DNA from: Muribaculaceae bacterium
GTDB taxonomy: Bacteria; Bacteroidota; Bacteroidia; Bacteroidales; Muribaculaceae
NCBI GenBank assembly: GCA_022484565.1
Contig: JAKVKZ010000005.1
Span: 1 to 64,000, forward strand
Reading direction: 5' to 3'
DNA length: 64,000 nucleotides
Part shown: in pieces, positions 5,421 through 62,300 of the stretch
How positions within the stretch are numbered: the first letter of the stretch is position 1
Layout: each line of letters opens with the position of its first letter
Position numbers and translations under genes: made by a program
The notes under the pieces: model-generated
The model's input: only the letters and a program-made list of their open reading frames with translations
Database searches by the model: none
What the model was told of the DNA's origin: nothing

Positions 5421-7556
5421 TTAGTCAACTTTCACCTTACTTACCTTTCCACCAGCTTTTACGATATACAGTCCTGAAGGAACATTAATTATGCTCTGGT
5501 TATTTACGCTCTTTATCATTCGGCCCATAAAGTCGTAAACCTCTGCATTATTTGCGCCAGTGATATTAATGATGCCTTCTCCGCCACTAATAGTCACATT
5601 GTCAACACTAACACCGATTAACCCTGTAGGTATTTTGCCTGCTTCATAATTAGTGGAAGCTCCATTCCCATTAGTCAGGTTAATTACAGTGTTTGTAACA
5701 TCTGTAGTGCGTTGGTCAAGCCAAACATCATCAGTGGTTGACCCTTCAGAATAACTGTTAACAATTGCACCTTCAACATCTGCTTCGTTAGCAAACGTAA
5801 CATAATTTGAAATCTCAGTAGAAAGGATCGGCATCTTCACCATTGTATAATGAGGTATAATAGCATAGTTATGTGCAATGGCCGCTTCGGCAGCAGTTAT
5901 AACGTCTGAACCTCTACCCGTACTTATCACATCTCTAAAATGTGGCGAAGTTAAATTTTTCACCCAAGCGCTCTGGCTTTCTCCATAGTAATTAACCAAC
6001 GGTGTGGTATAATCTGAAACATTTGTCGTGGCTGTTGCATTATCCAGACGTTTAAGCTCATACCATGATGCTGCACTGACGCCAGAACCATTATCTACTG
6101 CATCAATTACAGCCACAAGAGAACCGCCCATATATGATTTGTAAAGGCGCCCGTCAGCTGTCATATTAATAATATTATTTGTCAGTGAAGGGTCAGAATA
6201 CTTAACCGGAAAATAATTTGACGTTGAATAGCTGTTAGTACCATTAGTGTAATTGCAAATCAATTTAGCCGTTTCCGCTCCATAAACGCCATAAATATTC
6301 AAATCCGATTGTACTCCGTCAGTGGCTTGCCCTGTGAAGTCCTTGCCATTAATTGTCAATGTGTAGTTCATTGTATATCCGCTTGGCACATGATTATCCC
6401 ACTTGATTTCAGTTTCAGGGAATGTGATCCTATAGTTCTTTTTATAATATGTTGAAGTTGTGCTCATCTTTTGTGAACATGCACCGATTTTTGGACTGAG
6501 TCCAATAGTTGATGACGTACCACTTGGAACTGCCGATAGAGCAGTACGTGGATTTGGGTCATTATCAATCCAAATTTCATCCAGATAGCAACCCACATTA
6601 GCCCCTGCATTAGTCTTAAAATACAGTTCATCAATTTCAGAAGCAGTAATGGCGCTTGAAACATAATCAGTCCATACATCTGTTAAGACAGCACTTATGA
6701 AATTAGTTGAAGCATTAGATATCACTACAGTACCATCATCAGTAGGATTCTTTCGCATCATTACGTGCAAATATTGTCTATCGGTTGATGTTTTCACGGG
6801 CTTTAAAAATCCAATCTTAGCTCCATACCACCATTTGGTAGTATTTTTTAGAGCTGTAGGTGACATAAAGAACAAACACCTTTGAGTATTATTAGCATTT
6901 ACGCTCTCAGGGTTCTCATAATAATTACTCAAAGTATAATCAGATGATTGAGTAGATATATCAGCCTTTGCTTCCGTATCATTTTGATCTTCAAAATTAA
7001 GGATAGAATTAGTAGTGAGATATTCACTATCACTAACCCTAATATTGTCAATATAACCAAACACAGAACTTGACAATATTCGACCAGCAGGGATATTATT
7101 ATATCCCAAATCTCCTAAGAATCGTAATTGCGTAACGACTAAATCAGTAGTTCCACTATTACTTACAAGAAATCGCATATTTTGCCACTGACCTAATTGC
7201 GTGTATGGAGCAATAGGACGGATATCAGTCCCTGTTGTATTCACTCTTATACTAATATCAGGCTGCGCAGAATATTTAATTAATATATGAATAATTTTTA
7301 CTCCGCCAGCAGGAATAGTAAATGAAACAGGAATGTCATTAAGCTCATACCAATTTGTCGAGGTTCTTCCAATTTGCAGACATTTTGTTGAAGTGTTTAA
7401 TCCACCAATCGAAGGATTGTCAACAATCTGTTCTGTTGCACCATATACTGGTGTAACAGTCTGATTACTTTCAAAATCACAAAGCATCGTCTCTGTGGCA
7501 CCAGCACAGAAAGGCGATAATAAACAAACGAGAAAAAATAACTTTAAAGATTTCAT
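5421..7556 (-). CDS. Secreted modular protein X1-X2-C-D with T9SS-like tail, no catalytic domain seen
   Basis: Signal peptide about 1-20. Residues about 22-195 (X1) begin MLCDFESNQTVTPVYGAT and end with FGYIDNIRVSD. Residues about 200-350 (X2) begin SILNFEDQNDTEAKADIST and end YLDEIWIDNDPNPR. Both look like galactose-binding-type beta-sandwich modules. Region C (about 360-460, ITFPETEIKWDNHVPSGYTM) resembles Ig-like repeats, and region D contains AIIPHYTMVKMP. The last 65 residues form a T9SS-like tail (VYDFMGRMIKSV, PSGLYIVKAGGKV). X1-X2 recur in the 17164-19047 and 19306-20541 genes; C-D-tail recur in the 48-64 kb genes. Function is unknown; substrate binding on the cell surface is the best guess. 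It has its own type I operator-promoter. Confidence 0.8.
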   Translation of the reverse strand: MKSLKLFFLVCLLSPFCAGATETMLCDFESNQTVTPVYGATEQIVDNPSIGGLNTSTKCLQIGRTSTNWYELNDIPVSFTIPAGGVKIIHILIKYSAQPDISIRVNTTGTDIRPIAPYTQLGQWQNMRFLVSNSGTTDLVVTQLRFLGDLGYNNIPAGRILSSSVFGYIDNIRVSDSEYLTTNSILNFEDQNDTEAKADISTQSSDYTLSNYYENPESVNANNTQRCLFFMSPTALKNTTKWWYGAKIGFLKPVKTSTDRQYLHVMMRKNPTDDGTVVISNASTNFISAVLTDVWTDYVSSAITASEIDELYFKTNAGANVGCYLDEIWIDNDPNPRTALSAVPSGTSSTIGLSPKIGACSQKMSTTSTYYKKNYRITFPETEIKWDNHVPSGYTMNYTLTINGKDFTGQATDGVQSDLNIYGVYGAETAKLICNYTNGTNSYSTSNYFPVKYSDPSLTNNIINMTADGRLYKSYMGGSLVAVIDAVDNGSGVSAASWYELKRLDNATATTNVSDYTTPLVNYYGESQSAWVKNLTSPHFRDVISTGRGSDVITAAEAAIAHNYAIIPHYTMVKMPILSTEISNYVTFANEADVEGAIVNSYSEGSTTDDVWLDQRTTDVTNTVINLTNGNGASTNYEAGKIPTGLIGVSVDNVTISGGEGIINITGANNAEVYDFMGRMIKSVNNQSIINVPSGLYIVKAGGKVSKVKVD

Positions 7557-7653
7557 ATAATATGGTTTTAGTTAAAAATGATTCAAACAAAATTCAATCA
7601 AAATGATTAATCAAGGCATCAAGAACATTGATGATTGTTTTCATTCGACGACA

Positions 7654-7713
7654 CAAAATTATACCATTAAAGGCATCAATAAAATGGAATAAATTACTAT
7701 TTTAATGGACTAT
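7654..7713 (-). promoter_or_regulatory. Type I operator-promoter of the 5421-7556 gene
   Basis: On the plus strand: -7 box CAAAATTA at 7654-7661, repeats TGGAATAA at 7685 and TGGACTAT at 7706. Repeat spacing is 21 bp and box-to-repeat distance 24, exactly as at the other type I sites. The rest of the 7557-7895 gap holds only the hairpin at 7821-7868. Confidence 0.75.
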
Positions 7714-7820
7714 CTTCCAATATTAACGTGAATTGAAGCAATCATTTTTAATGCGTAATTATTGTAAGCAACAAACATAGCAATTCACAGAACACCTATA
7801 CGTCTTAATAAGCATAATGA

Positions 7821-7868
7821 AGGGCTATTGACTGAAAGAAATGAGGGGATTAATCAGTCAATCGCCCT
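7821..7868 (-). terminator. Terminator hairpin after the GH2 gene
   Basis: AGGGCTATTGACTG pairs with CAGTCAATCGCCCT with a single mismatch. It lies 27 bp beyond the stop codon of the minus-strand GH2 gene ending at 7896. Confidence 0.65.
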
Positions 7869-7895
7869 AAAATACAAATTGCAAAGGATGAACAA

Positions 7896-10700
7896 CTACT
7901 TTACAAATAAAGATTTCAATTGTGATTCGGTAACGCTTTGCGAAGGGTGAAATAATCCACCTTTCATATAATCCAAAAGGCTACTGGTCAGTTGAACGGC
8001 TTCAGGGCGATTTTGAGAATTGCTCAATAAGTCAACGCCACATAGCATCAGTGAGCCATTCCCTACTTTAAGCTCCACTATCAATCCCAATGAACGGGCA
8101 GTGAACCAATCATCAATGATGCGAACAATTGGCTTCGCATCGCCCAGTTTATGCAAAGGAAGCGCATTGCAGTGCGACATGGCATCCTGCCACTGATAAT
8201 TGCTGTGATATTCAGTCGGGAAAAGCCGAAGAGCAGGATGAGCAGGATTGCACAATATACCCAAAGTGTGCGGTGCCATGCCATTCGTCCAAAGAGTGTT
8301 CCAGAAAATGGAAGAAAAGCCTACCACCACTGAATCTTTACCCTCATTTCTAAGACTGCCAAGCACTGGACTAAGCAGCACTTTGCCTCCATCTGACAAT
8401 TTTTTCAGCACAGCCTCATTGAGCGAAGAAGCCACCATGACATCACCGTCATCAACTTTAGCATCAGGATAAGCCCAAAGGCTCCATCTGTTTTTATAAC
8501 CACCAACCTCAACAGCAAGCTCCCACTGCTGCGGAGAATCGACTTTAACCAAATGGGAAATGTTCCCCACAGGAGTTAATGCCCCAGTTGGCATATTAAC
8601 AGCTTTCATAACTCCACTGTCAATCTGACGGCCATTCTTAGCAGTAATTTTCCAGCATATCGGCAGATTCAAATCCTGTTGTGAAAACTGAGCAACCTCA
8701 ATATTTGCCCTCAGCGTGTCGCCGGAACGATAAACGAAGCGAGGCATAAGAGCCAATGGGACTATTGAATTGCAGAATTCACTATATTGCTGTGGAGTTA
8801 CGTATCCTTTTGATTTCCAAAACGGATTAAGCACGCCCACAATTGCACTGCCCTGTCCTGGGAAATCGTGCAAATCAAGCAGTTGGAAACCCCCAAAATC
8901 TTTAGTGCGAAGCGCAGCTTCAATATCAGCCTTATAGCACAAAGTCTGCAATTTGCCCGAAGCCAGCAGGAAACTGTCGGCAAGGTTAAGTAATCCATTA
9001 TCCCTCAATCTGTCCTCAAAAATATCAAAATTCTTTGCCTTTAGCACACCAGTGTACTCAGCACGCTCCTTCAAATCAGGATACACGCACCATTGACCTA
9101 TTTCATGGCTGATAGTGGGTTGAGTCTTGGAAATCATGCTGCTCCAATTGAATTCACTATTTGGCGTTTTGGAATTAATAATGCTCTTCACACCCTCACC
9201 CCATCGTTGAATCCTCGGACCTGACACGCAAAGCCAATCACATTCCGGCACAGCGGGCCAACCTGCAGCGGTGGTGAATAGAAGTCTATTTTCGTGTTGT
9301 TTCCAATAGCTGACAAAATTTCTGAGATATTTCTCACGATTCTTGCCCCAAGGCTCGTTGCCGTACGACATCAAGCAAAATGACGGATGATTGCCGTATT
9401 CATCAATAATTCTTTTGCTTTCATCATACACGAACTTGTCAATCGGCTTGCCACTACCAATATCGCCTGACCATGTGTCGCACTCAACATACAAATAAAT
9501 TCCCAATCTATCCGCAGCCCTGAATGCCGCCTCTGGCGGACACCAAGAATGGAAACGGATGTGATTCAAGCCATAAGCCTTGCAAGTCTCCATAATATGT
9601 TTCCATTGATTCTCGTCAGTGGCGGGGAATCCAGTCTTTGGGAAAATGCAACATTCCAAAGTTCCACGGAAAAAGACAGGGCGACCATTGACAGTTATCT
9701 GTGTGCCTTTTACACCAAGTTGGCGCAGCCCAAAAGTATCATTACACTCATCAGCGCCTTCATTCGTCAAAAGTTTCACGTTTAAAGAATACAAATTAGG
9801 TGAGAACTCGTCCCATAGACGGAAATCAGCGCTCATGTCATAATCGGCATTAATCACATTGTCTCCTTTAGCAATGGAAATATTCATTTTCAGCACAGGA
9901 AGTGCGGTATTGTCGGCAGCTGAAGCCGAAATCATTAATATCGCACTATTTCCGATTTTTTTATCTGATGATATGTGAAGGGTGATGTGTATCTTCTTCC
10001 TTGCAATGTCAGGCTCAATCCTGACATTGTTCACAAATGTTTTAGGACGCGCAACGAGTGACAAGTCTCCGACAATTCCATTCCAATTGGTCTGAGTGTT
10101 ATCGGATATGCTGTGAGCATCCAGTCCGGGCTGAATGTCGCCAATGCTATTGTCAACGCACAAAGTGAGATTGTATTCCTTCCCGGGCTTTAATCCGCTC
10201 AACTCATATCTATGGGGAACAGCCAATGAATTTCTGTTGCCCACTTTCTTCCCATTGAGCCAAAGCGATGTCCGCCAATGGCATCTTTCAAGATTCAATT
10301 CCACTGAACGGTTCTTCCAATTTGAAGGAACAACTATTTTCCTTTGATACCATGCCTTACCAACATAATATTTATTAGGAGTGAGCCAAAAAACGATTTT
10401 TGTATTTTCAGGAGAACGGTATTTTTTATAAAAATCACTTTCATACCAACTCTTATTCCACATCGACCCCGTCCATTTAGTGTTTACGCTAATTTCATCG
10501 CCTATTCCATTCGTATTCAATGAGCCAGGCAAAAGCAGCGAATCAGTGAACCAGCTATTGTACCATTTCTCACTCTCGCCAACATTTTTGGGGTCAAGCC
10601 TATAATTCCACTTTCCATCCAATGGTTGAACAGATGTTTGCGCAAAAGCCCCCATAAAAAGAGATGAAGCCAAGAAAAAAACTAAACAAAAATGTTTCAT
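7896..10700 (-). CDS. GH2 family glycosidase (beta-galactosidase or beta-glucuronidase-like)
   Basis: Signal peptide about 1-20, then the GH2 sugar-binding jelly roll (about 24-220, with YYVGKAWYQRKIVVPSNW and CHWRTSLWLNGKKVG), an Ig-like domain (about 225-330) and a TIM barrel (about 335-600). The acid/base is E449 in YGNEPWG and the nucleophile E533 in SHEIGQW. The barrel segment GLNHIRFHSWCPPEAAF is typical of a GH2 subgroup found in plant cell-wall PULs. About 330 residues follow the barrel without a domain I can name. Exact sugar specificity cannot be read from the sequence. It starts 21 bp after the LacZ-type GH2 gene and is probably co-transcribed with it. Confidence 0.85.
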   Translation of the reverse strand: MKHFCLVFFLASSLFMGAFAQTSVQPLDGKWNYRLDPKNVGESEKWYNSWFTDSLLLPGSLNTNGIGDEISVNTKWTGSMWNKSWYESDFYKKYRSPENTKIVFWLTPNKYYVGKAWYQRKIVVPSNWKNRSVELNLERCHWRTSLWLNGKKVGNRNSLAVPHRYELSGLKPGKEYNLTLCVDNSIGDIQPGLDAHSISDNTQTNWNGIVGDLSLVARPKTFVNNVRIEPDIARKKIHITLHISSDKKIGNSAILMISASAADNTALPVLKMNISIAKGDNVINADYDMSADFRLWDEFSPNLYSLNVKLLTNEGADECNDTFGLRQLGVKGTQITVNGRPVFFRGTLECCIFPKTGFPATDENQWKHIMETCKAYGLNHIRFHSWCPPEAAFRAADRLGIYLYVECDTWSGDIGSGKPIDKFVYDESKRIIDEYGNHPSFCLMSYGNEPWGKNREKYLRNFVSYWKQHENRLLFTTAAGWPAVPECDWLCVSGPRIQRWGEGVKSIINSKTPNSEFNWSSMISKTQPTISHEIGQWCVYPDLKERAEYTGVLKAKNFDIFEDRLRDNGLLNLADSFLLASGKLQTLCYKADIEAALRTKDFGGFQLLDLHDFPGQGSAIVGVLNPFWKSKGYVTPQQYSEFCNSIVPLALMPRFVYRSGDTLRANIEVAQFSQQDLNLPICWKITAKNGRQIDSGVMKAVNMPTGALTPVGNISHLVKVDSPQQWELAVEVGGYKNRWSLWAYPDAKVDDGDVMVASSLNEAVLKKLSDGGKVLLSPVLGSLRNEGKDSVVVGFSSIFWNTLWTNGMAPHTLGILCNPAHPALRLFPTEYHSNYQWQDAMSHCNALPLHKLGDAKPIVRIIDDWFTARSLGLIVELKVGNGSLMLCGVDLLSNSQNRPEAVQLTSSLLDYMKGGLFHPSQSVTESQLKSLFVK

Positions 10701-10721
10701 CGACAGCTATATATAATTAAA

Positions 10722-13811
<3,090 letters not shown>

Positions 13812-13843
13812 TTATGTTAAGATAATTTATTCAATAATAGATT

Positions 13844-13875
13844 CAAATTTACATAATTCTATGATTTTCACCAAA
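13844..13875 (-). promoter_or_regulatory. Canonical Bacteroidota promoter of the LacZ-type GH2 gene
   Basis: On the plus strand CAAATTTA (13844-13851, TAAATTTG in transcription direction) and CAAA (13872-13875, TTTG) are separated by 20 bp, matching TTTG-N19/20-TAnnTTTG. The -7 box lies about 40 bp before the start codon. Neither operator type seen elsewhere is present. Confidence 0.65.
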
Positions 13876-13880
13876 CAGTT

Positions 13881-13935
13881 GCATGTGAGGAGTGAAAATT
13901 CATGTAATATGAATCATCCGCATCTCCCCACATGC
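13881..13935 (-). terminator. Hairpin after the sulfatase-GH30 gene
   Basis: GCATGTGAGGAG pairs with CTCCCCACATGC (fully paired in minus-strand RNA by G-U wobble), with an inner ATTCAT/ATGAAT stem. It begins 15 bp beyond the stop codon of the fusion gene and just upstream of the promoter of the next gene. Confidence 0.65.
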
Positions 13936-13949
13936 ACGAATGAGAAAAT

Positions 13950-16790
13950 CTACTTTTTATTAAACACTATTGTTGTAACTGATTTTGATTTCAAAATTAA
14001 ATTAAAGGAGCTATCATCGGAAAAATCGCGCAAAATACGCTCGCAATTTTCGTCAGCAGAGGTCCTGTACATTTCTACTGGCACAAATTCTTCGTTCAAC
14101 GACTTAACGTCGAAATTGAACAGGCTATTCTTGTTATTCCGATTAACAGCAACTACAACCAACCTTTCCCCGTCAGGAGAAATTGCAGCGAGCACATTGT
14201 CATGATTACTGTCTATTATAGTATATCCGGGATTAATAAAGTTCATGAACTGCTTGTGGCAATAATATCCTTTATTCTTCACAAATATCTTCTTATTTTT
14301 ATCAAAACCGACCAACGACCAAACGCCATCGTATCCACCGCCATAATATTGCCAGTCGCACCAGCTGTTAGGACGCATAACATTCAAATCCACAGCCATA
14401 CGTTCAGCCATTATCAAATAATTGTCCAATCCTTTTTCAGTATAGTTCAAAGGGCCGGATTCAGATTGCCACAAACGGATATTATGCGATTTAGCGAACT
14501 CTCCAAGCTCTGCCCTTTTCGTTCCTGCATAGCTATGGGTATTAATCTGGCTGATATATTGCAACACAGAATCTTTTTCATACTTCAAGACGCCATTCAT
14601 ACACTCATCTATGCTGTTGGCATCCATAGCAGAAATGGAAGTGTATTTCAGCATATCTCTATTCTTGAGTTCTTGATATAACGTTTTGATGATTTTCTCT
14701 TGATTTGCTTGATTGAACGCACATCCTTCTTGCTTTCCACCCTCTTTCCACCAATTGGAATATGGCTCATTCACAGGCGAAATGGTTTTGAAAGTAACAT
14801 TATATTTCTTCTTATAATGTTCCACGCAATCAGCAAGATATTTAGCAAAATCTCCAAAACAATCATTACGAATATTATCAGAGCCATCGGGCGTTCCTGA
14901 GGTGCAACCGCTAATAGTCATCCAATATGGAGGCGAATAGCTGGCAGCTTCAAACACGGCATTCGGGCAATTTTTCTTAATCATGAGTAATATTTTGCGC
15001 TGTGCCGCATCGGAATTCCAATCGTAAGCGGAATCCCTTCCGTTTTTATATCCAGGAACTTGTGCGTCAAGCCTCATGTGCATTTTATGGTTGGGCGATT
15101 CACCGCCGCCGATATTGTAACGGAATATATTCATGTTAAGTTCTTTAGGATTTGTCATCCAATCAACCATTGGCGACAGTTCCTTTTCAGTAAATCTTTT
15201 GCCTAAATCATTAGCCCACCATGAGATTGATACTCCCCATCCTTCAAATTTTTGATTTTTAATGTCAGCATTTATTTTCAAAGTGTCAACAGGTACAACT
15301 GAATAATACGGATTGGGTGTAGGAAGTTTGGCACCGACATTTTTTATCCAATTATGCAATTCATTTTTCAGCCTTAGAACTTTGTCAGGATTTTTTGATG
15401 ACAAATCATTTGACTCAGAAATATCCTTCTTCAAATTATAAAGTTCGCATTTCCCGTTTTCATAGAACTCAATTAATTTCCAATCTCCATCACGGACTGC
15501 CGACGCAGGGCTGTCGCCTTTTCCTCCGTATTGAGGGTAATGCCAAAACAATGATGTCCTGTCAATTTTACCGCCTTTCAGCAAAGGCATTAAATCCACT
15601 CCATCCATGTGCTGCTCAGGCTTCAATTTCAATCCGCACGCAGATAGAATTGTAGGATAAAAATCCGTTGATATTACAGGAGTAGTACAAGTTTTCCCCA
15701 CGTTGTTCAAATAAGGGATACGAATCAAGAAAGGAACTCTTATTCCGCCCTCATACAGCCATCCTTTACCTCCACGCAATGGATAATTGCATGTGGGTGA
15801 GCCTTCAGCTGTGGATAAGCCGCCATTATCCGACAAAAAGCAAATGATAGTGTTGTCGTACAGTCCTGATTCTTTCAAATAGTCAATAACTTTACCGACA
15901 TTTTCATCCATGCTTGAAATCAGCGCAGCATAATCAGGGTCGCTTTGAACTGTTCTCTCTTTCCAATGATTGCGAGGGTTTGGGCAATCGTTAAGCCATG
16001 GAAAGTTTTTGGAAAACGCCTTTAACGTATCAATTCCCATTTTGTGAGCCTTGTCTTTGAATATTAAAGCCTTCTCTGGTTTCGGCTGTATCGGCGTATG
16101 CACAGCATAAAAGGAAAGATACATAAAGAATTTATTGTCTTTATGAGTCTTAATCCAATTCACTGCCTCATTTCCAAGCCGGTCAGTAAGAAATTCGCCC
16201 TTAGGTCCATCAGGAAGGTAAGGATTGTGATAAGGCGTGAAATAGGCATTACCCTCTTTTTGGTCGCCGTTAGGATTTCCTTTCATCCAGCCTCCAATAT
16301 TCCTGTCGAATCCTTGATACTGTGGATAATATAAAGAATCTTCACAACAATGCCATTTCCCGACGAAACAGGTTTGATAGCCATTCTCTTTTAAAGCCTC
16401 AGCCACAGTTTCCTCTTCAAGTGGCATATTTATATTTATTTTAGGGACAAGCAATTTATACTGACTTGTCTGCTTGCCTGTCAACCCGTATTGATAACCC
16501 GGAATCCAGTCTGTAATGTTCAATCTTGCAGGATATTTACCAGTCATTATGCTGCATCGTGTTGGTGAACTTATGGCTGCAGCCGCATAACCGTTATTAA
16601 ACACCATACTTTCCGATGCCAGTTTATCAATATTCGGCGTTTCATAATATGGACTGCCATTATAGGAGACATCTTTCCAGCCATAATCGTCAACAAGAAT
16701 AAAAACCACGTTTGGTGAAGGCTTTTGTGGCAATGCACTAAAAGCAAGCCCTGCCATCAACATAAAACTTGATAATCTATATTTTATCAT
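13950..16790 (-). CDS. Sulfatase-GH30 fusion enzyme (bifunctional)
   Basis: Two enzymes in one frame (946 aa from the preferred ATG at 16790, which starts a signal peptide; an ATG at 16835 is possible). Residues about 25-500 are a type I sulfatase: NVVFILVDDYGWKDVSYNGS, serine-type signature SSPTRCSIMTG with S74 as the residue to be converted to formylglycine, FVGKWHC, IICFLSDNGG. Residues about 515-946 are GH30, closest by motif to the endo-beta-1,6-galactanase group: SYSPPYWMTISGC, acid/base E675 in SPVNEPYSNWW, nucleophile E777 in LWQSESGP. A serine-type sulfatase needs an anSME maturase, not present here. Sulfate removal coupled to galactan backbone cleavage is the natural reading. It has its own type I operator-promoter, about 190 bp upstream. 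Confidence 0.9.
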   Translation of the reverse strand: MIKYRLSSFMLMAGLAFSALPQKPSPNVVFILVDDYGWKDVSYNGSPYYETPNIDKLASESMVFNNGYAAAAISSPTRCSIMTGKYPARLNITDWIPGYQYGLTGKQTSQYKLLVPKININMPLEEETVAEALKENGYQTCFVGKWHCCEDSLYYPQYQGFDRNIGGWMKGNPNGDQKEGNAYFTPYHNPYLPDGPKGEFLTDRLGNEAVNWIKTHKDNKFFMYLSFYAVHTPIQPKPEKALIFKDKAHKMGIDTLKAFSKNFPWLNDCPNPRNHWKERTVQSDPDYAALISSMDENVGKVIDYLKESGLYDNTIICFLSDNGGLSTAEGSPTCNYPLRGGKGWLYEGGIRVPFLIRIPYLNNVGKTCTTPVISTDFYPTILSACGLKLKPEQHMDGVDLMPLLKGGKIDRTSLFWHYPQYGGKGDSPASAVRDGDWKLIEFYENGKCELYNLKKDISESNDLSSKNPDKVLRLKNELHNWIKNVGAKLPTPNPYYSVVPVDTLKINADIKNQKFEGWGVSISWWANDLGKRFTEKELSPMVDWMTNPKELNMNIFRYNIGGGESPNHKMHMRLDAQVPGYKNGRDSAYDWNSDAAQRKILLMIKKNCPNAVFEAASYSPPYWMTISGCTSGTPDGSDNIRNDCFGDFAKYLADCVEHYKKKYNVTFKTISPVNEPYSNWWKEGGKQEGCAFNQANQEKIIKTLYQELKNRDMLKYTSISAMDANSIDECMNGVLKYEKDSVLQYISQINTHSYAGTKRAELGEFAKSHNIRLWQSESGPLNYTEKGLDNYLIMAERMAVDLNVMRPNSWCDWQYYGGGYDGVWSLVGFDKNKKIFVKNKGYYCHKQFMNFINPGYTIIDSNHDNVLAAISPDGERLVVVAVNRNNKNSLFNFDVKSLNEEFVPVEMYRTSADENCERILRDFSDDSSFNLILKSKSVTTIVFNKK

Positions 16791-16981
16791 AACTTTTGCA
16801 TTTAAATTAATTCGATATATTACGGATAGCAACATCTATTGCTGTTTGTTCTGAACAAACAAAAAGAGCAACGAGACACTGCTATTAATTCGTTGAAAAG
16901 AGGATATGTATTTATATTTGAGTTTCACTGATGTGGAATTAAATTCTAAATTGAAATGACATTCGTTATAAAAATCTCATA

Positions 16982-17041
16982 CAAAGGTATTTTTTATAGA
17001 TTAATCATAAAATAGATTATCTTACTTTATTGATGGACAAT
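16982..17041 (-). promoter_or_regulatory. Type I operator-promoter of the sulfatase-GH30 gene
   Basis: On the plus strand: -7 box CAAAGGTA at 16982-16989, repeats TAGATTAT at 17013 and TGGACAAT at 17034 (21 bp apart, box-to-repeat distance 24). This predicts a 5' leader of roughly 185 nt to the preferred start; I see no strong structure in the leader. The remainder of the gap up to 17163 shows nothing else I can name. Confidence 0.75.
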
Positions 17042-17163
17042 TGTTCAATAAACTTGTATCGAGAGCAGTATTTGATTCCAACCGCTTCTTCGTATAAAAA
17101 ATGGATGATAATCTTGTTTTCCCCTATGTATCCGGTCCTAAGCATATAGATTTGATTGTATTG

Positions 17164-19047
17164 TTAGCTGACAATGATTTTGGTATGATTCAACAAATAA
17201 AGGCCTGATGCAACATGAATAGTGTTGCTGCCTTTCTTTACACCAATATTTTGAATGAATTTCCCCGATAAATCAAATAAAGGCAATATTATATCATAAT
17301 CAGAATCAATTTGAATTCCACCTTTAACGCCATATAATTTTATACCATGTAACTTTTCTTTAGCAATTCCCGTTGAATAAACGCGTGGGTTAGGATTATT
17401 GTCAATCCATACTTCATCTATATAACACTTAACATTTGCTCCAGAATTCATCTTGAAATACAACGAATTTATTGTTGATGCGGGTATGGCACTTGAAACG
17501 TAGTCAGTCCACTTATCCGTTATTTTCGTGCTGATATATGTATTGCTGACATCAGCGACATGAACCGTTCCTTCATCAATCGAGTCTTTCATCATCATTA
17601 CATGCAGATATTTTCTGTCTTCATTTACACTTACCGGTTTTTTAAATGCAATCTGTGCACCATGCCACCAATTTCCTGTGTCAGTTAATTTAACAGGCGA
17701 TTCAAAGTATAGGCAACGGGCTGTTTTATTAAGACTTGTGTCAGAAGGATTAGCACAATAGTAATCCAAACTGTATGTAGAGGATTGAGTGGTTATTATA
17801 GTTTTTGCCTCTGTATCACTTTTGTCCTCAAAATCCAATATGGAATTAGCCGTTATCTCTTCTGGAATAAATAGTCGAATCTCATCAATATACCCAAATG
17901 TAGTGCCCGACAATATTTTACCGGCTGGAGAATTGTTGTAACCAATATCTCCAAGAAAGCGCAATTGTGTTACTGGTAAATCAGATGTTCCACTATTATT
18001 TACCATAAATGTTATGTCTTGCCAATTTCCGTAATCAGTATAAGCTGACAACGGGCGGATATCTGTTTGGGAAGTATTTACCCTGATAGCAATATCAGGC
18101 TTTGACATATACTTCACAAGAATATGCACTTCACGGGCCTTTCCTGCGGGTATAATAAAAGATACTGGAATATCCACCAATTCATACCAATTTGATGAAG
18201 TTCGACCAATCTGTAAGCACTTATTTGTTGTGTCCAATCCTGATTTCAATGGATTATCCACAATGCTTGCCGTCGCACCGAAATTTGATGTTACTTTCTC
18301 TGCATTCTCAAAATCGCAAAGAGTTCCAGAATCCACATAATTAGGCGCGAACCATTTATATATTTCAGCAGCAACTATCTTATGACCCAATTCATTTATA
18401 TGATTGCTTTGTGCCATGTATTTGTTCAGCGTCTCTCCATTTTGCCTCATTTTCTTGAAAACGGCATAGCTGTCAACCAGCCCTACATGATATTTTGATG
18501 CAATCGCCCGTATCTGAATGGCCTGTTTTGCCAATGGTGCTGAATCATTAAGTATGTCTTCTGTAATGTCGGGCGTTGGAGTCAACAATATGACTTTGCA
18601 ACCATAAGCCAAAGCTTTCTGTACCATACTTTCCCATGCGGCCCTTGACCTTGCCAGACTAATTCCCCTGTCGTTCAATCCATAATCTATGAACAGCACA
18701 TCAGGACGCATGCACAGCACCTCTTTATCAAACCTCGTTGCCCCCTGCTCCGACTGTTCACCACCTATACTGGTCGTTATTGAGTTCACAACAGCCGACG
18801 TATATGTTTCCTTGACTAATGCCAAAGTCTGGTGCGGATATGCCGCCAATGTATTTACAACAGGTGTGGCAAAATAGCCTGAAGGCACGCTGTGACCATG
18901 AAAAACCAGATTTATTGTCCTGTTATTTGGCCATTGTACCAATAATTCCGTCTTTAAAGTTTTCAAATATGTACCTTCATCAGCTATCTGAGAATAACAT
19001 ACTATGCCTGAAAACAACATCAATAAAATAAAAATACTTTTTTTCAT
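17164..19047 (-). CDS. SGNH hydrolase with X1-X2 modules and T9SS-like tail
   Basis: Signal peptide about 1-19. The SGNH domain (about 20-235) has the nucleophile S53 in FHGHSVPSGYF, an oxyanion block TSIGGEQSEQGA, block III IDYGLNDRG, and the catalytic His H216 in SNHINELGH. That set supports an esterase, probably acting on acyl groups of the glycan. Residues about 238-385 (X1) and 390-560 (X2) repeat the modules of the 5421-7556 and 19306-20541 genes and likely bind carbohydrate. The last 60 residues are a short T9SS-like tail (LPLFDLSGKFIQNIGV, SGLYLLNHTKIIVS). It is monocistronic, with its own type I operator-promoter and a terminator of the preceding unit at 19260-19289. Confidence 0.85.
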   Translation of the reverse strand: MKKSIFILLMLFSGIVCYSQIADEGTYLKTLKTELLVQWPNNRTINLVFHGHSVPSGYFATPVVNTLAAYPHQTLALVKETYTSAVVNSITTSIGGEQSEQGATRFDKEVLCMRPDVLFIDYGLNDRGISLARSRAAWESMVQKALAYGCKVILLTPTPDITEDILNDSAPLAKQAIQIRAIASKYHVGLVDSYAVFKKMRQNGETLNKYMAQSNHINELGHKIVAAEIYKWFAPNYVDSGTLCDFENAEKVTSNFGATASIVDNPLKSGLDTTNKCLQIGRTSSNWYELVDIPVSFIIPAGKAREVHILVKYMSKPDIAIRVNTSQTDIRPLSAYTDYGNWQDITFMVNNSGTSDLPVTQLRFLGDIGYNNSPAGKILSGTTFGYIDEIRLFIPEEITANSILDFEDKSDTEAKTIITTQSSTYSLDYYCANPSDTSLNKTARCLYFESPVKLTDTGNWWHGAQIAFKKPVSVNEDRKYLHVMMMKDSIDEGTVHVADVSNTYISTKITDKWTDYVSSAIPASTINSLYFKMNSGANVKCYIDEVWIDNNPNPRVYSTGIAKEKLHGIKLYGVKGGIQIDSDYDIILPLFDLSGKFIQNIGVKKGSNTIHVASGLYLLNHTKIIVS

Positions 19048-19075
19048 AATGAAATAATGTTATAATAATTTTACA

Positions 19076-19135
19076 CAAAAATATATTTTGCGAAATTATT
19101 GTGGAATGGATAATATTACTTTATTGATGGACAAT
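19076..19135 (-). promoter_or_regulatory. Type I operator-promoter of the SGNH gene
   Basis: On the plus strand: -7 box CAAAAATA at 19076-19083, repeats TGGATAAT at 19107 and TGGACAAT at 19128. Spacing of 21 and 24 is identical to the other type I sites. The segment after the second repeat (TTGTTCAATAAACTTG) is also identical to that at 17040-17055, so the conserved block is longer than the repeats alone. Confidence 0.8.
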
Positions 19136-19259
19136 TGTTCAATAAACTTGTGATAAACAAATTGCCTTTATTAAATGGCAATTTCGATATATTAATGCGA
19201 AAAAATCAAGTTGCCTCATAACAATATTGCAACCTTTTTTTCGTAATAGAAAAAAACAA

Positions 19260-19289
19260 GCCTTGGCACAAATTTCTTCATACCAAGGC
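19260..19289 (-). terminator. Intrinsic terminator of the SusC/D operon
   Basis: GCCTTGG / CCAAGGC stem with a long loop, followed on the minus strand by CTTGTTTTTTT. It lies 16 bp past the stop codon of the last gene of the 29703-19306 operon. Confidence 0.8.
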
Positions 19290-19305
19290 CATCGAACAGA
19301 ATAAC

Positions 19306-20541
19306 TTACTTAACGACTACTTTGGACCCGTTCAGAATGTAAAGTCCTGATTGGATATTTACAAAGTTATCGCCATTTCTTACGGAAATATTCTTAACTA
19401 ACCGACCCAGCACATCGAAAACTGGGATGTTAACATTTCTATCGGATATAACTTCGATTCCACCGTTAGTTCCAAACACCTTTAAGCCATTAGTGCTTAT
19501 GCCTTTAACTCCAGAATCAACTGTACGAGGATTCGGGTCGTTATCAACCCAAATATTATCAATATAGCATTTCACATTTGCACCGGAGTTCATTTTGAAA
19601 TTCAGCACATTAATTGTTGTGGCAGTAATAGGACTTGAAACATAGTCAACCCAATCTGTACCTGCGAATACTACAGAGATGTAATTAGTGTTATCATCCG
19701 CTACCCAAACTGTGCCACCATCTACAGCGTCTTTCTTCATCATGATATGAAGATATTTTCTGTCGGTATCCAATTTTATAGGTTTTTTGAACGCTATCTT
19801 CGGACCATGCCACCAATTCCCTGTATTTGTCAAAAGAACAGGTGATTCAAACAGCAAGCACTTATTGGATTTATTGATAGTACCATTTTCTGGGTTATCG
19901 CAGAAATTATCCAATGTGTAAGTATCCGACTGCGTGGTGATAGCAACCTTGGATTCAGTGTCAGCCTTATCCTCAAAGTTCAATATGGAATTAGTTGTTA
20001 TCATTTCAGGAACTTCGAGCTTGATTTCATCAATGTAGCCAAATGTTGTACTTGATAAGATTTGACCAGATGGTACGTTTTCAAAACCCATATCTGCTTC
20101 ATAGCGCAATTGTGTAACAGCTAAATCGGTAGCATCAGTGTTTGTTATCACAAAAACCAAGTCTTGCCAATTTCCAAAATCAGTATAACGCGCTATTGGA
20201 CGGATATCTGGATTACTGGTATTCACTCTGATTGCAACATCAGGCTGTGCTGCATACTTCACAAGAATGTGAATGTCACGAGTTTCCCCTGCAGGAATTG
20301 TGAATGATACAGGAATGTCGGTCATCTCATACCAATTCGATGAAGTTCGGCCAACCTGTAAGCAATTATCTGTTGTGTCCAAACCAGCTTTCAACGGATT
20401 AGCTACAATAGATGCTGTAGAACCATAATTAGTGGTTAATGTTACTGCACTCTCAAAATCAACAAGAGTGGTTTCAGTTGCATAGGAACCAAAAGGCACC
20501 AGCAAGCATGACAAGAAGAACAAATTAATTAATTTTTTCAT
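19306..20541 (-). CDS. Secreted X1-X2 two-module protein with T9SS-like tail
   Basis: Signal peptide about 1-21. X1 (about 23-180) begins TLVDFESAVTLTTNYGSTA and includes QVGRTSSNWYEMTDIPVSF. X2 (about 185-345) includes SILNFEDKADTESKVAITT, NTGNWWHGPKIAFKKPI and ends CYIDNIWVDNDPNPR. The tail (about 350-411) has IPVFDVLGRLVKNISV and SGLYILNGSKVVVK. There is no catalytic domain; it is essentially the binding half of the SGNH protein as a separate gene. Last gene of the SusC-SusD operon, 11 bp after the LamG-GH30 gene, so a surface or secreted glycan-binding role is likely but unproven. Confidence 0.8.
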   Translation of the reverse strand: MKKLINLFFLSCLLVPFGSYATETTLVDFESAVTLTTNYGSTASIVANPLKAGLDTTDNCLQVGRTSSNWYEMTDIPVSFTIPAGETRDIHILVKYAAQPDVAIRVNTSNPDIRPIARYTDFGNWQDLVFVITNTDATDLAVTQLRYEADMGFENVPSGQILSSTTFGYIDEIKLEVPEMITTNSILNFEDKADTESKVAITTQSDTYTLDNFCDNPENGTINKSNKCLLFESPVLLTNTGNWWHGPKIAFKKPIKLDTDRKYLHIMMKKDAVDGGTVWVADDNTNYISVVFAGTDWVDYVSSPITATTINVLNFKMNSGANVKCYIDNIWVDNDPNPRTVDSGVKGISTNGLKVFGTNGGIEVISDRNVNIPVFDVLGRLVKNISVRNGDNFVNIQSGLYILNGSKVVVK

Positions 20542-20552
20542 AAATTTAAGTA

Positions 20553-23500
20553 TTAGCGTTTAACAATCAATTTTTTAGTTTCTCGAATATTATTTTCATT
20601 ATATAATACTACTACATATACACCAGGCGTCATATTGCTGGTGCTAATCTGATAAGAGTTCAGCCCATTCACATTAAAATCAGAAATGAGGCGTCCCATC
20701 AAATCATACACACGGAGTGATGTGGCTTTATCAAAGCTACAATTCACATCTTGACCTTGATTTACAGGATTCGGGTAAACTTTCATATTATCTTTTACGA
20801 TAGCCACATCCTGCAAACCGGATTTTGCCTTTGCTTTACCAACAAATGTGACAACCGATGTGCCCGACATCTTATACAATGAGCCATATTTCACAGCTGG
20901 ATAGCACTTCAGATTATCACCTTCAGCATCCGAAGTCACATAAGGCGTAAATTCAGGAATAGTGTAATCAGGATTAAAATTATTTACATCTAATTTTATG
21001 CTGACATCGCTTGTTGAAGCATTCACTGCAACAAAAACCACATTATTCGTTATTGAGTCGTAATATCCTGTCACCATCTGATTCGTTACGGCATTCTCAT
21101 CGCTCAAATTGTCGGAGCGGTCAACATCAATGCGTACCATTCCCGGACGTATAAACCTTGAATAGTTACCTAAAGTATATAACAATTTTGTAGTTCTGTA
21201 TATGCCATCGGTCTTAGTAGTGTTGAGTGCGTAAGGTATCAGGACGTACCTGTCTTCCGACGACCAGTCAGTGCCAAAAACTGTCCACCATTGCCATGCT
21301 GATGCATTGGCAAGTTTCAAATCATTATGGATAATTCGTGCCAAAGAAATGCCCGATTCCATTGGCGTTAATGTACTGTTTGTATGGCCAAATTTATATC
21401 CATCACCAAGAAGGCTATATTCAGTTTCCCAATAATCAAGACCCATTGATTTAATTCTTGTCCCTAATTGCGCTCTTTTTTGGCACAAGTCGGAAGCGCT
21501 GCCATCAGTCCAATAGCTGTGTGATGTTGGAATCATCGCCAACTTCGACAGCTTGCCAAAATAATCTGCACCACTCGGCGACCATAAATCATTAAGCTGG
21601 TCAGAAGCATAACCGCCACTCGACAACAAAGAATTAATGCTTCCAGCCTCACCCACAACTATCTTGGCATCGGTGTTATTGGACTCAAATGCAGAATTTA
21701 TGGCAACTACCACGTCATGGATTTCAGCATTAGTCCATGGGCTTCCTTCCTGTGAAATTGTACCGCCAGATGAACTTGGACTCCACTCGTATTGAGGTTC
21801 ATTCAAAGGACTGATATATCCTATTTTAATGCCATTTTCATTAAAGTGGTTCACCACCTTGGCAAGAAAATCGCCATAAGCGCCATATTTATCCGATTTC
21901 AATATCGTGCTGTGCCCATCGCCATATTCCTTGAAGCCAAGACCTCTTTTAGTGAACTGCACTGGAGGACAATTCTGCCACCCCATAATTTCGGCATGAT
22001 ATGTTTTTGCAGCTTTCTCCACGAACCATTGCTGACCGGCCTGCTTTGTCCAGTCGTAAGTTCCGTCGGCATTCAGGAAACATTCAGTCCTTGCCATGAC
22101 TGTTGAAATTCTGCTGGCATCACCTTGTTCAGCTGTGCCAGAGCCAATATTGAATCTCCATAGCGACAACCCGATGCCCTTTGGATTACCATCAGCATCA
22201 TTTTCCGTGCTTAACAGAAGCTCAGCCAAAGCATCTTTCTTTTGCTCAGGGAAATATTTGCCAACGTATGCACCGTCCCAAGCGTCAGAAGCGCCAAAAT
22301 TCGACATCGTCTGCTCTTTTTTGCTTGCATCTGCTGTAAAACTAATGTATTTGGTCTCACTGTTGTTGAAATTCACTATCTGTGCAGATGTCAATTCTTC
22401 CTTATATGAATTCAGATTGCATATTTTATACGACAACCCGTCAACAGCATCTCCGAAGCAAATATTTGCACAAGGCAGAGTATTGACATCAGTCCTTGCT
22501 ATGACCAAAGAGGATACACCATTCACATATACTCTTATGGCAGCAGTTCCTTGAGCGGTATATGTCTGAACAAAAGCTATAGAATTCCATTCATTCTCAT
22601 TCAAGCCACCTATTGCTCCTTCCTTTACCACCGTCTGTTCTCCATCAATCGATGAAACAAACTGCAAATCCCATTTACCACTTGATTTACCCATCCGCAA
22701 TCCATAAAAATCGCCTCCAGCGGATTGATATTTCATAACATATTTGCTGCTGTCGGAGCTTGCAAAAGTCGAAGGTTTAAACAAAAAGGCTACAGTAGAT
22801 TTACTATTACCAATAAACGTTTCAGGCAATTTCAGGTAGCCTCCATCGTTGATTGATAGCGCAGAACCTTTTAACGCATCTTCAACAATCGCAGTATTGC
22901 TGCTGGTCAATATCTTCGTATTTCCTTTTGTGTCGATGTAATCATTCTGTAGAGGGAAATTTGAATAAGGTATTCCTGATACGAATGGAGCAGGAACTGA
23001 GTCCTCACCTGCCATCAAAGCTTGTATCTGATTGTCCGATAGTACTGAATGGTAAATCTGTATATTGGATATACGTCCCGACATCGGATAACCATTCTCA
23101 GGTTCATTGCCGACATACCATCTGATTGTATTGAAATCCGACAATTTTGTCAGCATCATCGTTTCAGCACTTTGTACTCCATTCTTGTAAAGTTTAACCT
23201 TATTTCCACTAAATACTACGGCAAAATGATTCCAAGTTCCATCCGCAGTGTTGTCGGCCCCCACACTCTTATATATTGAATATGGCTTATTGTCTAAATT
23301 CAGAGCCGTTTGGTCATTCCAAGTAGTTTTTGTGGTGAGATAAACATTACTTTCATCAGCAGCCGCAAAACAGAAAATTCTGGCCCAGTATGAATTAATG
23401 TTGTCTGATTCCCTTTTAACCCAAAAGGAAATTGTCATATCATCATTTAATGGTGAACTTGCGAATTTCAAGCATCCTTTTTGGCTTGCCGAAAATGACA

Positions 23501-23699
23501 TCACATTGCATTTGCGGTCGGAATCGTATACCACTGTCGCGCCATTAAGCAACGTTGTAGTTGCATTGCCAAGGACGTCTTTAGCTGTACCGTCAGCAAA
23601 ATTGATGTTGGCATAGTGCTTGTATTCGCCATAATTAGTACTTGCCTTTACTGAAAAGGCAAGTACTATAAAAGCTATTACAACTAAAAATTTATTCAT
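20553..23699 (-). CDS. LamG-LamG-GH30 secreted enzyme with T9SS tail
   Basis: Signal peptide about 1-19. Two concanavalin A-like/LamG domains (about 25-230 and 235-445) carry MTISFWVKRESDN, ADGTWNHFAVVFSGNKVKLY and NEWNSIAFVQTY. The GH30 catalytic region (about 450-955) starts QTMSNFGASDAWDGAYVG, with acid/base E634 in SPLNEPQYEW and nucleophile E760 in YWETEYS. A classic T9SS type A tail (about 970-1048) has VYPNPVNQGQDV, RVYDLMGRLI and MTPGVYVVVLY. It should cleave a beta-linked galactan or related glucan-type backbone at the cell surface. It sits 9 bp after the glycan-binding lipoprotein gene in the SusC/D operon, the usual place for the surface endo-enzyme. Confidence 0.88.
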   Translation of the reverse strand: MNKFLVVIAFIVLAFSVKASTNYGEYKHYANINFADGTAKDVLGNATTTLLNGATVVYDSDRKCNVMSFSASQKGCLKFASSPLNDDMTISFWVKRESDNINSYWARIFCFAAADESNVYLTTKTTWNDQTALNLDNKPYSIYKSVGADNTADGTWNHFAVVFSGNKVKLYKNGVQSAETMMLTKLSDFNTIRWYVGNEPENGYPMSGRISNIQIYHSVLSDNQIQALMAGEDSVPAPFVSGIPYSNFPLQNDYIDTKGNTKILTSSNTAIVEDALKGSALSINDGGYLKLPETFIGNSKSTVAFLFKPSTFASSDSSKYVMKYQSAGGDFYGLRMGKSSGKWDLQFVSSIDGEQTVVKEGAIGGLNENEWNSIAFVQTYTAQGTAAIRVYVNGVSSLVIARTDVNTLPCANICFGDAVDGLSYKICNLNSYKEELTSAQIVNFNNSETKYISFTADASKKEQTMSNFGASDAWDGAYVGKYFPEQKKDALAELLLSTENDADGNPKGIGLSLWRFNIGSGTAEQGDASRISTVMARTECFLNADGTYDWTKQAGQQWFVEKAAKTYHAEIMGWQNCPPVQFTKRGLGFKEYGDGHSTILKSDKYGAYGDFLAKVVNHFNENGIKIGYISPLNEPQYEWSPSSSGGTISQEGSPWTNAEIHDVVVAINSAFESNNTDAKIVVGEAGSINSLLSSGGYASDQLNDLWSPSGADYFGKLSKLAMIPTSHSYWTDGSASDLCQKRAQLGTRIKSMGLDYWETEYSLLGDGYKFGHTNSTLTPMESGISLARIIHNDLKLANASAWQWWTVFGTDWSSEDRYVLIPYALNTTKTDGIYRTTKLLYTLGNYSRFIRPGMVRIDVDRSDNLSDENAVTNQMVTGYYDSITNNVVFVAVNASTSDVSIKLDVNNFNPDYTIPEFTPYVTSDAEGDNLKCYPAVKYGSLYKMSGTSVVTFVGKAKAKSGLQDVAIVKDNMKVYPNPVNQGQDVNCSFDKATSLRVYDLMGRLISDFNVNGLNSYQISTSNMTPGVYVVVLYNENNIRETKKLIVKR

Positions 23700-23708
23700 T
23701 AATAATTT

Positions 23709-24812
23709 TTATTTGATTGTTACTATCAGTTGCGCTGATAGTGTATATTTAGGATCTGAATTTCCAAGAAGTGACATTGAAATGTTATAGGTCACCTGCT
23801 TAGAGGTAAAGTCCACCGACGTCACGCCACTGGTCTGATTCACTCCGCCGACTGTGACAGCATAGTTCGTACCGTCAGTCAACGATGAATTGTTTTCCAA
23901 TACCACAAACTCAGGCTTTAATGAAGTCAAATCAGTTCCGTCGGGCAAGCTCAGCACAGCATCGAATTTATCGTACGATGCTGTCTCACGTGTTATAGTG
24001 GCTTTATAGTCCGTGCCACCGACATTCACCGAGAATGATGTGATTTCCGGTATCATCAGTGCTGCCATATTATATTCCGTAGTATTGCCCGAGGCAGTCA
24101 CTACCTTGAATTTCTGTACAGCCAGTTTGCCGCTCGCATCTGTAAAGCTAACCACACGCGTAGCTGTCGAACCCGACACTAACTCGTATTCTGTATTGTC
24201 AGTCGGGTCTATCCAATATAAGTTAGCCAATGAAGAAGCTAAACGGAATGTCGTGGTCAATTTCTTCAACTTTGAAAGCAGGCTGAATTTCTTCCATGAC
24301 TCAAATATCAGCGGGCACACAACTGTGGTGCCATCAACAAACTTGCCGGCTGCCTCATACGCCGAATTTGAATATTCTGCCATGTTATAGAAATTGGAGA
24401 TGCTGAACTGGTCCAATCCACCATTGGTGGCCTTAACCACTACCGTACTCTCCGATGACTTCGACACAATCGTCCCGTCATCCTTTATTGATGAGGCTAC
24501 CCAAGTGACTTTATATTCACCAGGTTCCTGATAGGAATATGAGAACAGACCGTCAGAGGTAGCAGCATATCCTGTTGCGCCGCTTTCTCCATACACATGA
24601 CCTTTATCGCCAGTGAATATGACAAAATTCTGACCAGCACCAGTACTCTTAAAATTCACAGTCTCGAATACCTCAAAGAATGATTTATCCGAATCCTGCG
24701 CAATCTTAAAACTTGCATCAGGCTCGACATAAAGGTCATCGATATATTTGTCAGTACATCCGCAAAAAGCAGACAATACTAATAAACTCAATATTATTAC
24801 ATTGATTTTCAT
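23709..24812 (-). CDS. Surface glycan-binding lipoprotein (SusE/SusF position)
   Basis: Lipoprotein signal with cysteine in SAFCGC near residue 19. An N-terminal PKD-like domain (about 35-130) has FVIFTGDKGHVYG and SYSYQEPGEYKVTW. Further beta-rich repeats end the protein; the segment VQKFKVVTASGNTTEYNMA is typical of DUF5018-like repeats in such proteins. It follows SusD by 12 bp and precedes the GH30 gene by 9 bp. I infer it binds the polysaccharide at the outer membrane surface. Sequence similarity in this class is low, so the call rests on the lipobox, domain type and operon position. Confidence 0.8.
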   Translation of the reverse strand: MKINVIILSLLVLSAFCGCTDKYIDDLYVEPDASFKIAQDSDKSFFEVFETVNFKSTGAGQNFVIFTGDKGHVYGESGATGYAATSDGLFSYSYQEPGEYKVTWVASSIKDDGTIVSKSSESTVVVKATNGGLDQFSISNFYNMAEYSNSAYEAAGKFVDGTTVVCPLIFESWKKFSLLSKLKKLTTTFRLASSLANLYWIDPTDNTEYELVSGSTATRVVSFTDASGKLAVQKFKVVTASGNTTEYNMAALMIPEITSFSVNVGGTDYKATITRETASYDKFDAVLSLPDGTDLTSLKPEFVVLENNSSLTDGTNYAVTVGGVNQTSGVTSVDFTSKQVTYNISMSLLGNSDPKYTLSAQLIVTIK

Positions 24813-24824
24813 TTGTTCTTTTTT

Positions 24825-26570: not shown

Positions 26571-26580
26571 TTCGATTATT

Positions 26581-29500: not shown

Positions 29501-29703
29501 ACCTTGGCTGTCTGGGCTGTTGTAGTCATAGCAAATTTACCGTCTAAGTCCGTCACTGTCTGTAATTTCTGCCCTTCTACCTTGACATTGGCTCCGATTA
29601 TCGGCTCATGAGTTGAACCGTCAATCACAGTTCCAGCTATCTCGGCTCCATAAACCGGCAACAGACTAATAAAACATAATATTACCAGTATTATTCTGTT
29701 CAT
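26581..29703 (-). CDS. SusC/RagA TonB-dependent oligosaccharide transporter
   Basis: Imports oligosaccharides across the outer membrane with SusD. Signal peptide about 1-19, carboxypeptidase-regulatory-like domain about 21-100 (GTVIDGSTHEPIIGANVKV), then a plug (VVVIGYGVQKKSDLTGAV, ALQGKASGVEVVRN, IRIRGMGTVNNSEPLYVVDG) and a 22-strand barrel to the C-terminus (SRSYTMGVIMDF). 1040 aa is a normal size. There is no operator or good -7 box in the 75 bp upstream; instead a strong hairpin at 29718-29764 separates it from the ELWxxDGT gene. It is probably expressed by read-through from the promoter at 31668. Confidence 0.96.
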   Translation of the reverse strand: MNRIILVILCFISLLPVYGAEIAGTVIDGSTHEPIIGANVKVEGQKLQTVTDLDGKFAMTTTAQTAKVTISYVGYKTQHVDWKAGGNALQITLFETSSELDEVVVIGYGVQKKSDLTGAVSSIKSGEIQSMPTTSVAQALQGKASGVEVVRNSGAPGSSTSIRIRGMGTVNNSEPLYVVDGIAMDKIDYLSSDDIESIEVLKDAASAAIYGSRAANGVILVTTKKGGSKKYDINFSGYYGIQNVLNKPDVMSQTDYAKFSDYVQNQGNMTELNSAGNLVMNSAAVALAKTCPSSWWDEVTQNASQYKANLSISGNTGGFNYYLSGGIQGTDGIIKQSDYQRKSLDMKINMKLSDKVNVGANLIYSREDRTVVPEGQWGVVKTAIDYNPFTPIIDPVSGSYNWSTPVEMLRRATYDWYNNNLLGQLNLTWDIYKGLKFVTRASYTSYNSDIDGFNKYNGNDRAVGTIQYTVSRYPVTTTNFSWENIATYSNVFGKNHLDLTVGQTMEKYKTDVNSFSGTGYGGYDDSFDAMAFAQYGRAVSGYTEGCNTFSLLGRVSYNYAEKYLLQVNFRADACSRFAKTNRWGYFPSASIGWKLNEESFLKPYKWISLLKVRLGWGQLGNNKIGNYAYKTVVSSSGSQYIYGTGVPSIVPAYSITQYGNPNIKWERTQSYSAGLDFNILKNRLSTTLDFFIKDTKDMLIAVPIVYMAGYPNTPMQNAGSVRNKGFEFQASYKDNIGSFRYEVGGNATYVKNRVTKLGSRGEPIYGGYLNSPNNLGYTNKTTVGAPIACFYGWKTDGLMKESDFDADGNALVPTFASNNKYNPGDMKFVDVNKDGVIDDNDKTYLGNPQPSWYYSFNIDLGYKDFDLSLFFNGEQGNSIFNATKYFMYSCVNSGGSWANGGFSNSASDYFSKVYRPSTSGQGTTYRDHWGPNVGGTVPAPSTDPTRNEINFRTSDFYIESGSYLRLKQIQLTYTLPKALCEKSKFLSSFKAYLTVTNPLTFTKYSGMDPEVGTSSNLFMGIDEGVYPQSRSYTMGVIMDF

Positions 29704-51972: not shown

Positions 51973-51995
51973 AATTAAAATTATTTTGCATAATC

Positions 51996-62229: not shown

Positions 62230-62300
62230 TGATATCTTATTGTATTTAACTTTCATTAATTACTGAAGTTATAGCCATGTAATAGCTAAAATCCACTTGC

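Follow-up and report, generated by a model that had tools for sequence, protein, structure and literature searches.

Does a single gene in the genome of a Muribaculaceae bacterium (GenBank assembly GCA_022484565.1) encode a genuine fusion of a sulfatase with a GH30 glycoside hydrolase, and would the two halves serve one substrate? An earlier note on the first 64,000 nucleotides of contig JAKVKZ010000005.1 (all of which we call the window) described a serine-type sulfatase and a complete GH30 domain, with both catalytic glutamates, in one frame behind one signal peptide. The open frame, Pfam matches and residue mapping bear out each part of this description. We examined the gene, its junction, its two halves, its neighbours and its relatives (Table 1).

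Table 1. Coordinates of the fused gene, its parts and the surrounding locus in the window.
Feature	Position	Strand	Basis or comment
Polysaccharide utilisation locus (PUL) around the fusion	5421..29703	minus	All genes on the same strand; the end genes are putative members, assigned by strand and order
SusC	26581-29703	minus	
SusD	24825-26570	minus	
Probable surface glycan-binding protein	23709-24812	minus	
GH30 with T9SS tail	20553-23699	minus	
Gene with no assigned function	19306-20541	minus	
GDSL esterase	17164-19047	minus	
Whole fused gene	13950..16835	minus	961 codons, open frame without stops; both domains by Pfam
Export signal and short spacer, residues 16-41	16715..16790	minus	Sequence reading; no lipobox cysteine seen
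S1 sulfatase domain, residues 41-511, nearest S1_16 enzymes	15303..16715	minus	Pfam, solved-relative search, residue mapping, tree, structure match
Codon of S89, serine expected to become formylglycine	16569..16571	minus	Aligned to Cys58 of AMOR_S1_16A (PMC11760155)
Linker, residues 512-517	15285..15302	minus	Alignments; low model confidence at 503-517
GH30 domain (TIM barrel and beta-sandwich), residues 518-961, GH30_5-like	13953..15284	minus	Pfam, solved-relative search, tree, residue mapping, model
Codon of E690, acid/base (Glu217 of Sa16Gal30A)	14766..14768	minus	Residue mapping; identical in 17/17 aligned relatives
Codon of E792, nucleophile (Glu320 of Sa16Gal30A)	14460..14462	minus	Residue mapping; identical in 17/17 aligned relatives
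Two GH2 enzymes, beta-galactosidase-type	10722-13805 and 7896-10700	minus	
Gene with no assigned function	5421-7556	minus	

The fused gene and its export signal

Three Pfam families match the fusion above their curated cut-offs: Sulfatase (residues 41-401, 186.6 bits), SGSH_C (357-497, 68.2 bits) and Glyco_hydr_30_2 (520-762, 72.5 bits). The architecture, with a single export signal ahead of both domains, is that of sulfatase-glycoside hydrolase fusion enzymes that act sequentially. The probable start is the ATG at 16790, which encodes the second methionine (Met16) and gives a protein of 946 amino acids. Met16 is the likelier start because a signal-peptide-like stretch (MIKYRLSSFMLMAGLAFSA) lies immediately downstream of it, and the earlier note had placed the end of the gene at this same position. 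The exported protein is most likely periplasmic, because neither a lipobox cysteine nor a T9SS tail was seen when its sequence was read by eye. The neighbouring GH30 enzyme, unlike the fusion, does carry a T9SS tail.

The junction between the two domains

The junction was said to be short, and the linker is indeed only about six residues long. AlphaFold pLDDT falls below 50 at model residues 488-502 (residues 503-517 of the full frame), as expected if the modelled stretch is a flexible linker.

Such a protein could also arise artificially, from a chimeric assembly or from a sequencing error that joins two neighbouring genes. The fusion comes from a single genome, a draft in 93 contigs that is 82.5% complete, and no second copy was found, both of which favour an artefact. 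Against this, the genome contains the junction DNA only once, the junction holds no 16-mer that is repeated in the window, and neither GC content nor codon usage breaks there. The codon-usage distances of the two halves to their neighbours (0.067 and 0.079) lie within the span of the neighbouring genes (0.063-0.103). The position of the join also argues against an error. Stand-alone sulfatases end in ..PTPNP.. plus a few residues, and the mature part of stand-alone GH30 proteins starts just before EGWG. In the fusion, the natural sulfatase end and the mature GH30 start are only a few residues apart, and nothing is left of a second signal peptide or of intergenic DNA, an outcome that a frame error would not give. 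The features of the sequence thus make an assembly artefact unlikely, contrary to a concern raised in the earlier note, and we regard a chimera as very improbable.

The sulfatase half

The sulfatase half carries the maturation motif [C/S]-x-[P/A]-x-R as S89-S-P-T-R93, with P91 and R93 kept. Mapping onto solved relatives shows that the calcium ligands of the D-D-D-N/Q site are complete (D49, D50, D336 and N337), so the possibility that required metal ligands are lacking can be set aside. The catalytic lysine and histidine of the S1 family (K287 and H201 in 9fo1) correspond to K357 and H246, and K160 and H162 are also present. An inactive sulfatase was considered and rejected, since every ligand is in place.

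A serine-type sulfatase calls for an anSME maturation enzyme, and the search for its gene that had been proposed was successful: the genome encodes an anSME that scores 461.8 bits (curated cut-off, 349.45). The sulfatase can therefore be matured without oxygen, and a missing maturation enzyme was rejected as an explanation. No sulfatase other than the fusion was found on contig 5; there are five further Pfam Sulfatase matches in the genome.

By nearest sequence and modelled fold, the sulfatase half is S1_16-like. Among PDB sequences, 6ust scores best (438 bits), ahead of 9fo1 (401 bits), and the third reaches 305 bits; the first two are termed S1_16 (PMC11760155). The half shares 48% identity with 9fo1 across 440 aligned positions. 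In a tree of sulfatases the fused half falls among the S1_16 structures, its exact place there not being settled. An AlphaFold model of this half alone (pTM 0.83) matches 9fo1 with a Z-score of 44.8 and an rmsd of 2.2 over 425 residues. This is the top structural match, nearly tied with three others (7stv and 6ust are within 1.1 Z). The same half was poor in the full-length model, probably because the alignment used there carried three sulfatases only; an alignment combining many sulfatases misplaced the GH30 rows.

Residues that bear on specificity are partly kept. W110 is the equivalent of Trp79, which is reported as essential for 4-O-sulfate activity of S1_16 enzymes on Gal/GalNAc (PMC11760155, PMC10154612). 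Of the two histidines described as characteristic of S1_16, His125 is kept (H162) and His149 is replaced by N187; near relatives likewise lack His149. A further change in the sugar (S0) pocket replaces Asn369-Gln370 with G438-K439. With the pocket altered at N187, G438 and K439, the 4-O specificity of this half is uncertain.

The GH30 half

The earlier note had proposed an enzyme of the endo-beta-1,6-galactanase type. As a prediction from sequence, this is supported: both the solved-relative search and the tree place the GH30 half nearest subfamily GH30_5. Its closest solved relative is Sa16Gal30A, a GH30_5 endo-beta-1,6-galactanase (157 bits vs 60 for the next; 33% identity). The residues named for that enzyme (PMC13431644) are kept as N689, E690, W695, Q702, Y769, E792, W828 and W839. 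E690 and E792 are the two catalytic glutamates of the GH30 fold, those of strands 4 and 7. In Sa16Gal30A the counterpart of Q702, Gln229, makes a hydrogen bond to the axial O4 of the galactose bound at subsite -1 (PMC13431644). Subsite -1 as a whole, with this O4-reading glutamine, is conserved in the GH30 half and in 17/17 relatives.

Subsite -2 has changed. Asp354-Pro355-Ser356 in loop 8 of Sa16Gal30A is replaced by Gly-Gly-Gly, and the position of the subsite -2 residue Asp354 is Gly832 here, Glu in 16 of the 17 relatives and Ala in the other. We use the name GH30_5-like because this aspartate of the sole solved member is replaced.

In a tree that included few reference subfamilies, the GH30 half groups with Sa16Gal30A against three other GH30 proteins of the window (support 100/100), on a long branch (1.04). 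It adjoins proteins from another family of the order (98/95; loci L067 and L104) and not those of its own family. The AlphaFold model of the GH30 part (model residues 501-946) aligns to 7n6h with a Z-score of 41.7 and an rmsd of 2.9 over 421 residues, and confirms the predicted fold of a (beta/alpha)8 barrel with an appended beta-sandwich.

The three other window GH30s in the tree resemble GH30_4, and for one of them the best solved relative is 3clw. In the window, 36274-38154 and 38197-40077 encode tandem GH30 paralogues that are 84% identical over 626 amino acids; among solved structures, the first is closest to 3clw (GH30_4). A 1284-aa GH30 protein at 48157-52011 has a long C-terminal part without a Pfam family. 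Distant GH30 domains also occur in two proteins, each of about 1050 amino acids, that are encoded in tandem on contig 32 of the same genome (L081, 616-6931).

The surrounding locus

The fusion lies within a PUL (Table 1). The GDSL esterase and the two genes with no assigned function share a repeated domain (..QIGRTSxNWYEL..DIPVSF..) that no Pfam family matches. Between this locus and a second SusC/D locus, 29779-31614 encodes an ELWxxDGT-repeat protein with a T9SS tail. Long frames without a Pfam or NCBIfam match in or near the loci are 4215-5267 (plus strand), 52488-54740, 59983-62256 and 62301-63950; by eye, the first has the look of a five-bladed-propeller glycosidase.

Distribution of the fusion and its relatives

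The earlier note had suggested a search for the same architecture elsewhere. This was done, and no other fusion was found in more than 1,000 sampled genomes altogether. A full-length search of 99 relatives did not return a second copy. With the GH30 half as query, none emerged from sets of 393 (order), 395 (phylum), 347 (family) and 395 (class) genomes, or from 12 genomes in the nearest relative's family; these sets overlap. A scan of contigs in the genome collection recovered relatives of the sulfatase half only, with no GH30 of the fusion's kind near them.

None of 25 close GH30 relatives carries a sulfatase when read with a sulfatase profile. They are stand-alone or have added modules, several with a ricin-B lectin and one with FG-GAP repeats. 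The FG-GAP fusion is a 1696-aa protein encoded at locus L091 (genome G950, 9434-14524). Sulfatase neighbours are rare for this GH30 group, occurring at one of about 25 loci. At L073, in another genome, a stand-alone member of the group precedes a melibiase-like gene and a pair of sulfatase genes. The GH30 gene is two genes away from the sulfatases, the nearer of which is 37% identical to the sulfatase half.

The closest relatives of the sulfatase half, at about 50% identity, come from other families of the order, Flavobacteriaceae, Cyclobacteriaceae and Planctomycetota, and the best match within the fusion's own family is 37% identical. Both halves may have been acquired by horizontal transfer, because the nearest relatives of each belong to other families.

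Proposed function and alternatives

The reading that we hold to be somewhat better than an even bet is a bifunctional exported enzyme of an arabinogalactan-type PUL, in which 4-O-desulfation is followed by cleavage of beta-1,6-galactan by the GH30_5-like half. Sulfated galactan pieces would enter through SusC/D, and anSME would convert S89 to formylglycine. The S1_16-like half would take a sulfate, most likely 4-O, off the galactose at the non-reducing end of galactan oligosaccharides that have been imported. Next, the GH30_5-like half would cut the beta-1,6-galactan chain that the sulfate had shielded, and the neighbouring GH2 enzymes would finish the fragments. A 4-O-sulfate in subsite -1 should block the GH30 half because it would collide with the O4-contacting glutamine, which would give a reason for desulfation first. 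The sulfatases beside a stand-alone GH30 at L073 and the two GH2 enzymes of the locus also speak for this reading; the altered sugar pocket, Gly832 in subsite -2 and the rarity of sulfatase neighbours speak against it. The substrate, the 4-O position, the order of steps and the periplasmic location are all points that we infer. The earlier note's statement that the fusion implies coupling is too strong. The two activities may act on one sulfated beta-1,6-galactan.

It is possible, though we think it unlikely, that the fusion is a self-contained enzyme for 4-O-sulfated beta-1,6-galactan, in which the sulfatase clears the -1 sugar and the glycine at subsite -2 tolerates sulfate on the neighbouring galactose. 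Loss of the acidic subsite -2 residue may reflect tolerance of negative charge. If true, this would make it the first sulfatase-galactanase fusion directed at sulfated type II arabinogalactan. We are equally doubtful that both halves are active but that the sulfatase targets another sulfated sugar on a branched galactan, the fusion merely keeping the enzymes together. The target could be 6-O-sulfated galactose or GalNAc, or a side chain of sulfated arabinose or sulfated uronic acid. Codium arabinogalactan is sulfated at several sites, with backbone, side chains and arabinose all modified (PMC8406133), and 6ust, the best match among solved structures, bears the name N-acetylgalactosamine-6-sulfatase (a 6S-GalNAc sulfatase in PMC11760155). 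The changed S0-pocket residues point the same way, but Trp110, which is tied to 4-O activity, is kept.

Doubt may also be directed at the other half. Instead of being an endo-beta-1,6-galactanase, the GH30 domain could have drifted towards a different glycan with beta-linked galactose or fucose, or could act in exo mode or release disaccharides. Its low identity to Sa16Gal30A, its long branch and the remodelled loop 8 would all fit. However, conservation of the entire -1 subsite, both here and in all 17 relatives, makes such drift improbable.

Returning to the proposed desulfation and cleavage by one protein, enzymes that cut sulfated arabinogalactans are scarce, and few gut Bacteroides can open these glycans as a nutrient (PMC8406133). 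One enzyme for both desulfation and chain cleavage would aid the reading of galactan structure and show which sulfate position blocks a galactanase.

Comparison with known systems

The earlier note knew of no well-described enzyme with this pairing. A literature search confined to open papers found no description of an S1_16-like sulfatase with a GH30_5-like domain, so the claim stands for the exact pair; sulfatase-glycoside hydrolase fusions as such are well described. P36 of Formosa agariphila joins an S1_25 sulfatase to a GH78 rhamnosidase, and the two catalyse consecutive steps on ulvan (PMC8511951, module 6hr5). Like the fusion, it belongs to a Bacteroidota PUL and has its S1 sulfatase and glycoside hydrolase on a single chain, and its order of action, non-reducing-end desulfation and then cleavage, is the one proposed here. 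It differs in sulfatase subfamily, glycoside hydrolase family and substrate, and its catalysis is experimental whereas that of the fusion is predicted. PbSulf1-GH195 of Polaribacter, in which an S1_51 sulfatase and GH195 take consecutive steps on diatom mannan (PMC13063451), likewise combines a sulfatase and an endo-acting glycoside hydrolase in one protein. Its sequential action is only proposed for the fusion, and its substrate, in contrast, is alpha-1,3-mannan.

Each half also has a stand-alone counterpart. Sa16Gal30A of Streptomyces avermitilis (24td; PMC13431644) shares with the GH30 half the fold, both glutamates, the -1 subsite with Gln229 and the subsite -2 residue Trp359, but is without a sulfatase, is distant in sequence and differs in loop 8. 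AMOR_S1_16A (9fo1; PMC11760155) and BT3057/BT3796 of B. thetaiotaomicron (PMC10154612) share with the sulfatase half the fold, calcium site, catalytic residues and 4-O tryptophan, but they stand alone and their His149 and Asn369-Gln370 are not kept in the fusion.

A parallel in role is PUL13 of B. plebeius, where periplasmic desulfation (BpS1_8, BpS1_14) is needed before a galactanase acts on sulfated arabinogalactan (PMC8406133). The same opening of the substrate is proposed for the fusion, although in PUL13 the sulfatases are separate proteins of other subfamilies and the dependent galactanase tested was GH43_24. The fusion is thus a new combination within an already known class of sulfatase-glycoside hydrolase fusions, to which it adds a further type, one in which each half has solved structures among its relatives.
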